Source: Thermus brockianus (lineage in GTDB: Bacteria > Deinococcota > Deinococci > Deinococcales > Thermaceae). From it: DNA of 64,000 bases. Positions within the stretch are counted from its first letter, which is position 1; every line of letters begins with the position of its first letter. Below the pieces are notes generated by a model. It was not told the origin of the DNA. It was given only the letters and a program-made list of their open reading frames with translations, and did no database searches. The position numbers were made by a program, and so were the translations under genes. Positions 1,891 through 18,801 of the stretch are shown here, in pieces. The DNA lies in contig NZ_CP016312.1 in NCBI RefSeq assembly GCF_001880325.1, positions 1,798,001 to 1,862,000 on the forward strand, in the 5' to 3' direction.

Positions 1891-2355
1891 ATGCCGCCTG
1901 AGCTTTACGTGGTCTTGGTGGCCGCCCTGCCCGTGGTGGAGCTAAGGGGGGCGATCCCCTTGGGGGTGGCCTTAGGGCTTCCCCCGTGGGAGGCTTTCCT
2001 CTTAAGCCTTCTCGGCAACCTCTTGGTGGCTCCCGTGGCCCTGGCGCTCCTGCCCTGGGCGGTGGGCCTGGCCACCCGCAACCCCTTTTTCGCCCGGCTG
2101 TGGCGGGCCCTCGAGGCCCGGGTGCGGCTTAGAGGGGAAGAGCAGGTCCAGCGGCTTGGGGCCCTAGGCCTTTTCCTCTTTGTGGCCGTGCCCCTTCCGG
2201 GCACCGGGGCTTGGAGCGGGGCGGTCCTCGCCGTGGTGCTCGGGCTTAGGCGGCGCTACGCCCTCCTGGCCATCTCCTTGGGGGTCTTAGGCGCGGGGCT
2301 TATCGTCCTCCTCCTTACCGGGGGGGCGGTGGCCGGGCTAAACTACCTGCGATGA
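1891..2355 (+). CDS. small multidrug export family (Sm_multidrug_ex-like) membrane protein
   Basis: The 154-aa protein has about four hydrophobic segments. Its N-terminal motif VAALPVVELRGAIPLGVALG is characteristic of the Sm_multidrug_ex family, whose transport role is largely unproven. A second conserved-looking stretch is VPLPGTGAWSGAVLA. ATG at 1891 is chosen because upstream codons in this frame only shadow rplT. Its stop overlaps the next gene as ATGA, suggesting translational coupling with the PlsY/acyl-reductase fusion. Family assignment is fairly sure; substrate unknown. Confidence 0.75.
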   Translation: MPPELYVVLVAALPVVELRGAIPLGVALGLPPWEAFLLSLLGNLLVAPVALALLPWAVGLATRNPFFARLWRALEARVRLRGEEQVQRLGALGLFLFVAVPLPGTGAWSGAVLAVVLGLRRRYALLAISLGVLGAGLIVLLLTGGAVAGLNYLR

Positions 2356-4013
2356 GCGTTTTCCTCTTCCCCTTGGCCTACCTGGTGGGGGCGCTTCCTT
2401 TGGGCCACTGGCTTGCCCGGCGGCGGGGGGTGGACCTGCGCACGGCAAGCCCCTACACCTTAGGCCTAGAGAACGCCTTTAGGCGCCTGGGCGTGGGGCT
2501 TACCCTCCTGGCCTTTGTCCTGGATTTCTTGAAAGGGTATTTGCCCCTTCTTTTGGGGCGTGCCCTCGGGCTTTCCCTGGCGGAGCTTCTCCTTTTGGGG
2601 ATAGCGGCCTACCTGGGCCACCTCTACCCCCTTTTCCTCCGCGACCCTTGGCCGCTTCGGGCCAAGGGGGCCGGGGTCCTCTTGGGCATCGTGGCGGGGC
2701 TTCCCTTGCCCCCCGCCTTGGGGATGGTGCCCGTGGCCTTGGGCCTTACCCTTTACGCCCTCACGGGCTACGCCTCCTTGGGGGCCTTGGGGCTTCCCTT
2801 GGGCCTCCTCTTGGCGGGGTTCCCCGGGGGGTGGGGCGGGGCGGAAAGGCTTCTCGCCTTGGGGCTTTTCCTCCTCGCCCTTTGGCGCTACAAGGAAAAC
2901 TTGGGCCGGATCCTCGAGGGCACCGAACCTAAGCTGGGAAACCCCTTGCCCCTTCCCTCGGAGCGGCAGGTGGTCTGCGCCTTCCTCATCCACCCCCTCA
3001 CCCTGGAGGATTTCTGGCAAAGCCCCCGGTTTCGCTGGCTTAGGCCTTTGGTCCGCCTGGGGCTTCTGCGGCAGGGGTGGATGGAATGGCTGGCGGAGCG
3101 CTTCCGCCCCATGAAGGTGGGGGAGGTGCGCGGGGTCAAGACGGCGGATGGGCGGGAGGTGCTCTGCCACCTGATCTCCGCTCCCCTTCTGCCCCACCAG
3201 ATCAAGGGGAAGCCGGAGCTGGCGGTAAAGCGGGCCATCCAGGGGGCGAGGCTTGCCCGGGAGCTTGGGGCCACGGTGGTGGGTCTTGGGGCCTTTTGGA
3301 GCGTGGTGGGGGAGAAGGGGAAGAAGGTACAGGAAGCGGTGCCGGGGATTGAGGTGACCAACGGGGGCGCCTACACCGCGGGCACGGTAAAGGCGGCCAT
3401 CCCCCAGATCCTCGCCCACTTCGCCCAAAGCGGCAAGGACCTAAAGGCCACCACCGCCGCCGTGGTGGGGGCCAACGGGGTGGTGGCCTTCGGCATTGCC
3501 CGGCAGATCGCCCCCCTGGTGGGCCGGCTTGTCCTGGTGGGGCGGGACCTGGAACGGCTTGGGCGGGCGGCGGAGACCTTGAGGAAGAACCTGGAGCGCA
3601 AAGGGGAAGCCCCGGAGATCCGGGTAAGCACCGAGGTGGCGGCCATCCGGGAGGCGGACCTCGTCTTCACCGCCACCAGCGACCCCAACCCCGTCATCTA
3701 CCCCGAGCACGTGAAGCCCGGGGCCTGGATCTACGACGAGGGGGTGCCCCCGGACGTCCACCCCTCCGTGCGGGAGGTGCCGGGGGTGCGGGTCATCCCC
3801 GGAGGGGTGGTGCGGCTTCCCGGGGAGGCGTGGGCCACCTTGGACCTCCACTTCGGCGCTCCCAACCAGGTGCCCGCCTGCCTGGCGGAAACCATGATCC
3901 TGGCGGCGGAGGAGGCCTTTGACCGCAAGAGTCTCGGGGGGGAGGTTAGGGCGGAGAACATCCAGTTCTTCGTGGAGCGGGCGGAGGCCTTGGGCTTCCG
4001 GGTGGTGGATTAG
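2352..4013 (+). CDS. fusion: degenerate PlsY-like membrane domain + long-chain acyl reductase-like domain
   Basis: This 553-aa protein joins two families. Residues ~1-200 are a multi-helix PlsY (acyl-phosphate:glycerol-3-phosphate acyltransferase) domain. The third PlsY motif survives (KENLGRILEGTEPKLG), but the first (SGNxGATN) reads SPYTLGLEN and the Gly-rich second (GGKGVATSFG in the plsY of this window) reads RAKGAGVLLG. Residues ~205-553 resemble cyanobacterial aldehyde-forming acyl-ACP reductase: VVGLGAFWSVVGE, a Rossmann loop AVVGANGVVAFGIARQI, VLVGRDLERL, and Cys510 in VPACLAETM at the position of the acyl-thioester cysteine of that family. I infer NAD(P)H reduction of an activated fatty acid at the membrane; the acyl donor and product are unknown. 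It overlaps both neighbours. Confidence 0.7.
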   Translation: MSVFLFPLAYLVGALPLGHWLARRRGVDLRTASPYTLGLENAFRRLGVGLTLLAFVLDFLKGYLPLLLGRALGLSLAELLLLGIAAYLGHLYPLFLRDPWPLRAKGAGVLLGIVAGLPLPPALGMVPVALGLTLYALTGYASLGALGLPLGLLLAGFPGGWGGAERLLALGLFLLALWRYKENLGRILEGTEPKLGNPLPLPSERQVVCAFLIHPLTLEDFWQSPRFRWLRPLVRLGLLRQGWMEWLAERFRPMKVGEVRGVKTADGREVLCHLISAPLLPHQIKGKPELAVKRAIQGARLARELGATVVGLGAFWSVVGEKGKKVQEAVPGIEVTNGGAYTAGTVKAAIPQILAHFAQSGKDLKATTAAVVGANGVVAFGIARQIAPLVGRLVLVGRDLERLGRAAETLRKNLERKGEAPEIRVSTEVAAIREADLVFTATSDPNPVIYPEHVKPGAWIYDEGVPPDVHPSVREVPGVRVIPGGVVRLPGEAWATLDLHFGAPNQVPACLAETMILAAEEAFDRKSLGGEVRAENIQFFVERAEALGFRVVD

Positions 4014-4666
4014 TGTGGCTTCTCCTTTCCCCCACGGCCCTCGAGGCCCCCTTCCTGGAAGGGGAGGCCTTCTCTTTCCTCGGGCGCAAGGGGCTTAGGG
4101 GAAGGGGCTTCGTCTACCTGGAAACGGGCATCGGCAAGGTGAATGCCGCCCTAACCCTGGCCCTTTGGGCGGCCACCCACAAGGTGGAAAAGGCCCTCCT
4201 CTTGGGCATCGCCGGGGCCTATCCGGGTAGCGGCCTCCGCCCGGGGGATCTGGTCCTGGTGGGGGAGGAGGTGGAGGCGGACCTGGGCGTAAGGGAGGGC
4301 CTAAAGGCCCTGGGCTTTTCCGCTTGGGAGCAGGAAGGGGAGCGCTTCTATAACCGCTTTCCCCTGGACAAGGGCCTCACCCAGAACCTGGCCCGGCGCC
4401 TGGGCCTTCGGGTCGTCACCGGCCTCACCCGGGACCTGGTTTCGGAAAGCCTCGAGGAAGCCCTGGCCTTGGCCCACCGGTGGAACGCCGCCCTGGAGAA
4501 CATGGAAGGGGCAGCCTTCGCCCGGGCCTGCCTCGCCCTCGGCATCCAAGGGGCGGAGCTTCGGGCCATCTCCAACCCTGCGGGCGTCCGGGACAAGGGG
4601 GCTTGGCGGGTGAAGGAGGCGGTGGCGGCTCTGGAAAAGGCAGTGGCCCGCCTCTTGGAAGGGTAA
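4013..4666 (+). CDS. mqnB: futalosine hydrolase
   Basis: The 217-aa protein has the nucleoside-phosphorylase-like fold of MqnB: GIGKVNAALTLALWA near the N-terminus, LLLGIAGAYPGSGLRPGDLV, the ENMEGAAFARACLALGI motif that binds ribose in this family, and a late Asn (ISNPAGVRD). MqnB removes the base from futalosine in the futalosine route to menaquinone, the only quinone of Thermus. The GTG start shares one base with the preceding TAG, so it is probably translated with the acyl-reductase fusion upstream. A strong hairpin follows its stop. Confidence 0.85.
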   Translation: MWLLLSPTALEAPFLEGEAFSFLGRKGLRGRGFVYLETGIGKVNAALTLALWAATHKVEKALLLGIAGAYPGSGLRPGDLVLVGEEVEADLGVREGLKALGFSAWEQEGERFYNRFPLDKGLTQNLARRLGLRVVTGLTRDLVSESLEEALALAHRWNAALENMEGAAFARACLALGIQGAELRAISNPAGVRDKGAWRVKEAVAALEKAVARLLEG

Positions 4667-18198: not shown

Positions 18199-18801
18199 AT
18201 GGACTGGCTTTGGGTCCTCTTCCTCGCTTATCTTTTCGGCTCCATCCCCGCTGGGGTTCTGGTGGCCCGCACCTACGGGGTGGACATCCGCAAGGTGGGT
18301 TCGGGGAACATCGGGGCCACCAACGTCCTTAGGGCCTTGGGGCCTGGCCCTGCCTTCGTGGTGGCCTTCTTTGACGTGTTCAAGGGCGGCATTGCCGTGC
18401 TTATCGCCCGGGCGGTGGGCATAGAGGGGCCCTTGCTAGGGGGTGTGGCCTTGGCGGCGGTTTTGGGGCACAACTACTCCGTGTTCTTGGGCTTTCAGGG
18501 GGGAAAGGGCGTGGCCACCAGCTTCGGCACCCTCCTTTTCCTGGACCCGGTGCTGGCCCTTTGGACCCTGCCCATAGGGCTTTCCGTGATGCTCCTCACC
18601 CGCTACGTTTCCGCAGGGAGCATGACCGGGGGGTTGGCGGCCTTGGTGCTGGCCTTGGCCTTGGGGCGGCCCCTTTGGGAGGTGGGCACCGTGGCCCTCA
18701 TGGCCCTTCTCATCTTCTTCACCCACCGGGAAAACCTAAAGCGCCTCCAGGCGGGTACGGAGCGGCGGCTTGGGGAGCGGGTGGAGGTGAGGGATGCTTG
18801 A
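18199..18801 (+). CDS. plsY: glycerol-3-phosphate acyltransferase PlsY
   Basis: The 200-aa membrane enzyme transfers an acyl group from acyl phosphate to glycerol 3-phosphate, the first step of phospholipid synthesis. All three PlsY motifs are intact: VGSGNIGATNVLRALG, FQGGKGVATSFGTL and HRENLKRLQAGTERRLG. It is thus the functional copy beside the degenerate domain fused at 2352. TAAAAT (18186-18191) lies 7 nt before the ATG, so it is probably leaderless. It overlaps bshB1 by 8 bp. Confidence 0.95.
   Translation: MDWLWVLFLAYLFGSIPAGVLVARTYGVDIRKVGSGNIGATNVLRALGPGPAFVVAFFDVFKGGIAVLIARAVGIEGPLLGGVALAAVLGHNYSVFLGFQGGKGVATSFGTLLFLDPVLALWTLPIGLSVMLLTRYVSAGSMTGGLAALVLALALGRPLWEVGTVALMALLIFFTHRENLKRLQAGTERRLGERVEVRDA

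Follow-up and report, generated by a model that had tools for sequence, protein, structure and literature searches.

A PlsY-like membrane domain joined to an AAR/PigE-type acyl reductase in Thermus, and its possible part in alkylamine lipid synthesis

The closest described enzymes and the alkylamine lipid

In AAR, PigE, and TamH, an acyl group is passed from a thioester to a cysteine and reduced to an aldehyde (PMC8341465, PMC9594044). PigE reduces the thioester and then transaminates the aldehyde (PMC8341465), and TamH converts a C12 acyl-ACP to the C12 amine (PMC9594044). PlsY has been described at the level of single residues. In aaPlsY, the G3P phosphate is clamped by Ser35, Arg45, Lys104, and Asn180, and Ser142 and His177 contact the G3P hydroxyl. 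On the acyl-phosphate side, His92 and the backbone of loop 104-107 hold the phosphate, and the Thr41 hydroxyl holds the carbonyl (PMC5700162).

Among the major phospholipids of Thermus, Meiothermus, and Deinococcus is the N-glyceroyl alkylamine phosphoglycolipid. Its structure has been reported from M. ruber, Thermus, and Deinococcus, whereas the reports for M. silvanus and O. profundus are based on Rf. Together with its Deinococcus relatives, this lipid was considered an unambiguous chemical marker of the Deinococcus-Thermus lineage (PMC3035268). The alkyl chain of the T. thermophilus lipid is iso-branched, like the fatty acids of this species (PMC3398001), and the most recent paper found draws a presumed pathway for the origin of the fatty amine (PMC9636437).

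The window analysed here (64,000 nucleotides of the Thermus brockianus genome, contig NZ_CP016312.1, positions 1,798,001 to 1,862,000) contains a gene in which relatives of PlsY and of the acyl reductases are joined in one chain (Table 1). No paper joining these two families was found in the literature searched, and the architecture, which is real and conserved, is apparently undescribed. Our best explanation, held with about even confidence, is a membrane-anchored fatty acyl reductase whose aldehyde would go to the amine of the N-glyceroyl-alkylamine phosphoglycolipid. Aldehyde formation, as inferred from the relatives of the reductase, is the firmer part of this explanation; the amine destination and the acyl donor are proposed less surely.

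Table 1. Coordinates of the fusion gene, its parts, and the related genes within the window.
Feature	Position	Strand	Basis
Small membrane protein (PF06695), upstream; overlaps the fusion start by 4 bases	1891..2355	+	Pfam
Fusion gene, 553 aa: PlsY-like membrane domain and AAR/PigE-like acyl reductase	2352..4013	+	ORF, Pfam, NCBIfam, predicted structure
PlsY-like integral membrane domain, residues about 1-201	2352..2954	+	PF02660; Z 21.4 to PlsY 5xj7 over residues 1-195
Glu40, place of aaPlsY Thr41	2469..2471	+	Glu in 30/31 Deinococcota-side rows and 0/9 outgroup rows; PMC5700162
His90, equivalent to aaPlsY His92 (phosphate hole); invariant 40/40	2619..2621	+	Orthologue alignment
Loop R103-A-K105-G106 replacing GGKG; Arg103 40/40, Lys/Arg105 39/40	2658..2669	+	Orthologue alignment
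AAR/PigE-like NAD(P)H-dependent acyl reductase domain, residues 205-553	2964..4010	+	NCBIfam, solved AAR/PigE chains, predicted structure, profile
Putative nucleotide-binding motif VGANGVVAFG, residues 372-381	3465..3494	+	Alignment with the AAR GxxGxxG segment
Cys510 codon, in VPACLAET; equivalent to AAR Cys294 and PigE Cys296; invariant 40/40	3879..3881	+	Alignments; PMC8341465
Futalosine hydrolase (menaquinone route), downstream; overlaps the fusion stop by 1 base	4013..4666	+	NCBIfam
Canonical PlsY, used for internal comparison	18199..18801	+	PF02660, 170 bits; TIGR00023, 169 bits, above the cut-off of 137

The reductase half

The open reading frame of the fusion starts with ATG. Its residues 8-187 matched the Pfam family PF02660 (G3P_acyltransf) at 97 bits, where the cut-off is 24. 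Among the NCBIfam models, PigE (NF053554) matched residues 255-549 at 2e-31 over model positions 46-333, AcACP_reductase matched residues 259-530 at 4e-14, and glutamyl-tRNA reductase was weaker still. The C-terminal half also matched solved AAR and PigE chains. The first-pass annotation had proposed a PlsY-like domain fused to an acyl reductase, and this is borne out by PF02660, by NCBIfam, and by the predicted structure. Cys510, which it had placed in the second half, was confirmed and is invariant in all 40 orthologues aligned.

The structure model, built from a 40-sequence alignment of orthologues, had a mean pLDDT of 92.3 and a pTM of 0.89. In this predicted structure, residues 208-553 matched the cyanobacterial AAR 6jzu with Z 26.8 and rmsd 3.0 over 320 residues, and residues 1-195 matched the acyl-phosphate form of PlsY, 5xj7, with Z 21.4 and rmsd 2.3 over 186 residues, so that both halves matched the families with which a structural comparison had been proposed. 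Against the predicted reductase half, glutamyl-tRNA reductase gave Z about 15 and shikimate dehydrogenase about 14. A profile of 13 orthologue reductase domains ranked the families similarly, with AAR at 4.5e-20, PigE at 3.5e-18, the carmabin TAD domain at 8e-6, and GluTR at 1e-4. Enzymes of the shikimate and glutamyl-tRNA types thus came out well below AAR, so that the refuting alignment named in the first-pass annotation was not seen, and a HemA/AroE identity of this half is rejected on score and structure match. The second half belongs to the aldehyde-forming acyl reductase type (AAR, PigE, TamH), as had been claimed.

The resemblance to cyanobacterial AAR (6JZQ, 6JZU; TIGR04058) includes the fold, the catalytic-type Cys, and the dinucleotide-binding segment, at 24% identity. 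Unlike AAR, the fusion has an N-terminal PlsY-like membrane domain, and its score against the AAR equivalog TIGR04058 was 52.8 bits, far under the cut-off of 449.7. It also has no ADO partner: a search of the genome for the aldehyde-deformylating oxygenase (TIGR04059) gave no match, while the S. elongatus positive control matched. The alkane route of cyanobacterial AAR is therefore unlikely. PigE and TamH are close sequence relatives of the reductase domain (PigE model 2e-31, solved PigE 3.5e-18), and the Cys is kept. Unlike these enzymes, the reductase is joined to a PlsY-like domain and has no aminotransferase in its chain; an aminotransferase, if it is a partner, is encoded elsewhere.

The carmabin TAD domain has the same fold as the reductase half (Z 22.6), and for this reason the fold and the Cys are not sufficient proof that an aldehyde is released. 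This domain was solved with a thiol cofactor disulfide-bonded to its Cys, which would fit a domain that is no catalytic reductase and instead senses or regulates acyl pools, or one that carries out some other thioester redox reaction. Against such a role, the Cys is invariant, the dinucleotide-binding segment is intact, and the nearest sequence relatives are aldehyde-forming, and we consider it very improbable. In our judgement, the reductase half probably turns an activated acyl group into a fatty aldehyde. The cytosolic C-terminal domain would take a long-chain acyl group onto Cys510 from an activated donor, either acyl-ACP or acyl phosphate handed over by the PlsY-like domain, and the resulting acyl thioester would be reduced with NAD(P)H to the aldehyde.

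Residues kept, lost, and new in the PlsY-like half

The membrane half resembles PlsY (5XJ5-5XJ9) in its seven-helix membrane fold, the phosphate-hole His, the basic loop residue, and the C-terminal GxE motif. Unlike PlsY, the fusion lacks Ser35, Ser142, His177, and Asn180 as a set, has Glu in place of Thr41, and carries an invariant Arg before the loop Lys/Arg in addition to the joined reductase. The score against the PlsY equivalog TIGR00023 was 74 bits, under the cut-off of 137. In the fusion of the window, the places of the G3P pocket residues Ser35, Arg45, Lys104, Asn180, Ser142, and His177 hold Pro, Arg, Lys, Asn, Ala, and Tyr, respectively, where the Ala is alignment-dependent. Across the orthologues, the Ser35 place holds mostly Pro or Ala (Ser in just 4/40), and the His177 and Asn180 places vary.

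The acyl-phosphate site gives a mixed picture: the His92 equivalent is present in 40/40 orthologues and the loop base in 39/40, but the Thr41 place is Glu in 30/40. Invariant residues include His90, Gly38, Gly89, Arg103, Gly112, and Glu192. Arg103 stands two residues ahead of the loop base and takes the Gly102 place if the base is matched to Lys104; at this point, a gap was introduced by the automatic alignment. Conservation is lower overall in the PlsY-like half (mean majority fraction 0.52) than in the reductase half (0.67).

The first-pass annotation had spoken of lost active-site motifs. This is correct for the G3P-binding residues, which no longer occur together as in PlsY, but on the acyl-phosphate side the His and the loop base are retained, and new residues specific to this family have become fixed. 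The PlsY-like domain is thus re-tooled and not merely decayed, and from its sequence it may plausibly still hold acyl phosphate or a lipid. Two of the motifs quoted earlier were found as given (SPYTLGLEN at residue 33 and RAKGAGVL at residue 103); the C-terminal motif at residue 181 reads KENLGRILEGTE, and RENL is the form of the intact PlsY.

Three outgroup fusions (L138:80-1876, L141:5161-6951, and L146:2401-4158) hold GSHNIGATN or GSLNIGATN and nearly all canonical PlsY residues. The fusion therefore probably arose with a near-canonical PlsY as partner, and the G3P site was given up afterwards.

The near-canonical motif in L138, L141, and L146, together with the invariant residues named above, would also suit a membrane half that is still an acyltransferase, moving acyl phosphate to an acceptor other than G3P, such as the Cys of its own reductase or an amine, so that the two halves catalyse successive steps. 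The top PlsY structure match was the acyl-phosphate form, and the genome encodes PlsX, the enzyme that makes acyl phosphate, which is hence available. The choice of the acyl-phosphate form means little, however, because the other PlsY chains lie within about 1.5 Z of it (Z 20.0-20.9). The Glu at the Thr41 place in 30 of the 31 Deinococcota-side rows and the lower conservation of the PlsY half also speak against this acyltransferase, which we regard as unlikely.

In the explanation that we prefer, the PlsY-like domain would no longer acylate glycerol 3-phosphate and would serve as a membrane anchor, probably also binding the acyl substrate or passing the aldehyde on within the membrane. A more specific form, in which the protein is an acyl-phosphate reductase whose PlsY domain has turned into a substrate-loader feeding the AAR-type site, in the first committed step to the fatty-amine phosphoglycolipid, is tentative, and acyl phosphate as the donor is put forward with the same low confidence.

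The intact PlsY at 18199, noted earlier as an internal comparison, was confirmed with 170 bits (Pfam) and is 34% identical to the membrane half of the fusion. Every genome keeps one or more separate PlsY-family genes above the cut-off besides the fusion. The fusion is therefore dispensable for ordinary phospholipid synthesis, as we infer. The genome of the window has four PlsY-family genes, including the canonical PlsY and the fusion. The third carries the motif SGNPGALN and adjoins a SufE-like gene and an SDR, and the fourth is divergent and adjoins a fumarylacetoacetate-hydrolase-like gene. Four such genes were also present in most of the Thermaceae genomes searched.

Spread of the fusion and possible fate of the aldehyde

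The reductase was found in 108 of 111 genomes of the phylum and in 29 of 31 genera, although the match in one of these genomes (G077) is weak and covers only part of the domain. The PlsY-like half was present in 46/46 phylum orthologues read, and the reductase was never seen unfused. A pattern-based scan across 84,980 species found 72 loci, mostly from Deinococcota. A few were labelled Armatimonadota, Actinomycetota, or Bacillota; these are mostly bins whose labels may be wrong, and all complete ones are fusions. The architecture is therefore neither chance nor an assembly join, since the PlsY-like half accompanied the reductase in all phylum orthologues read and in every complete orthologue elsewhere. 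In the tree, all Deinococcota rows share the same side of one branch (support 100/100), which is the pattern that inheritance inside the phylum would give. The plasmid collection contained no match to the fusion.

No Deinococcus was among the hits of the 84,980-species scan or of the 111 phylum genomes, and no Deinococcus was seen in the 111-genome set itself. Deinobacterium chartae matched the AAR model TIGR04058, which is suggestive, since this model finds just the fusion in the Thermus genome; it is not proof of a fusion, because M. jannaschii also matched.

The upstream PF06695 gene and the fusion are probably co-transcribed. The order PF06695, fusion, futalosine hydrolase is that of Thermus; the link to futalosine hydrolase is not kept outside Thermus-like genomes, and the Trueperaceae fusions have another set of neighbours. 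No lipid gene was found among the conserved neighbours of the fusion when the orthologue neighbourhoods were compared, which speaks against a role in lipid synthesis as we propose it.

Long-chain 1,2-diols occur in Thermus strains (Wait et al. 1997, as cited in PMC3398001), and the first-pass annotation had suggested that the fusion supplies their aldehyde or alcohol. An acyl reductase step would fit diol synthesis, but diols are possibly present in only small amounts in Meiothermus ruber (PMC3035268), yet almost all genomes of the phylum carry the gene. The membranes of Thermomicrobium roseum (Chloroflexota) have been described as entirely diol-based, and no Chloroflexota locus appeared in the 84,980-species scan, a weak observation since the scan is pattern-based. 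The link to diols is thus not supported and we consider it improbable; the product that fits better is the N-glyceroyl alkylamine phosphoglycolipid.

For this lipid, a separate class-III aminotransferase would transaminate the aldehyde to a long-chain, mostly iso, alkylamine, which would then be joined to glyceric acid by the amide bond of the major phosphoglycolipid in Thermus, Meiothermus, and Deinococcus. The relatives PigE and TamH support this reading, since they carry out both reduction and transamination in a single chain and make amines. The fusion gene is present in the genomes of Meiothermus ruber, M. silvanus, Oceanithermus profundus, and Truepera radiovictrix, and its presence in the first three supports the amine reading, as these species are reported to make the lipid or one of the same mobility.

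The genome of the window encodes five class-III aminotransferases, of which G000:C1:221274-222515 is the candidate. Putrescine aminotransferase was the top family for this protein, followed by the PigE model (1e-126, the aminotransferase part of that model); its best solved relatives are putrescine aminotransferases, then PigE. PigE therefore unites in one chain domains that are related to two separate proteins of Thermus. Among complete genomes, nearly all of those in families f1 and f4 carry an orthologue of the candidate. None was found at E 1e-100 in f2, f3, and f5 (Trueperaceae-type), which have the fusion, and the best PigE-model scores there were about 240-320 bits, like those of other aminotransferases, against 411 in Thermus. 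A phylum-wide partner of PigE type is rejected on this absence, which is the main gap in the amine hypothesis; the distribution supports a possible partner limited to Thermaceae and relatives. By reading of the sequences, the neighbours of the candidate are GlmM, RbfA, a thioesterase, and RNase R, and no lipid cluster was seen.

The lack of a phylum-wide PigE-type aminotransferase, together with the fusions in the few bins labelled Armatimonadota, Actinomycetota, and Bacillota, would also agree with a fatty aldehyde that is reduced on to a fatty alcohol or used in another ether, ester, or signalling lipid, and not in an alkylamine. The evidence from the reductase is identical for this route. 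No fatty-alcohol lipid common to the whole phylum is known to us, whereas the alkylamine lipid has been reported across several of its genera, and we rate the fatty-alcohol route as a minority possibility, although less doubtful than the diols. The amine lipid as the destination of the aldehyde is held at about equal chances for and against.

If the amine reading is correct, a lipid acyltransferase fold has been re-used as the membrane half of a reductase. The fusion offers one nearly universal and well-conserved candidate for the first step towards the amine of this lipid, and the question is testable in the genetically tractable T. thermophilus. It is also a possible thermostable enzyme for making fatty aldehydes or amines.

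Two split genes were observed during this analysis. A LysJ-like aminotransferase of lysine biosynthesis is divided over two frames, L077/L080 (G000:C1:709990-711095), suggesting a frameshift or a sequencing error. At L155:3494-5346, a long-chain acyl-CoA ligase-like gene is present as two consecutive open frames and adjoins an ABC transporter of the branched-chain amino acid type.
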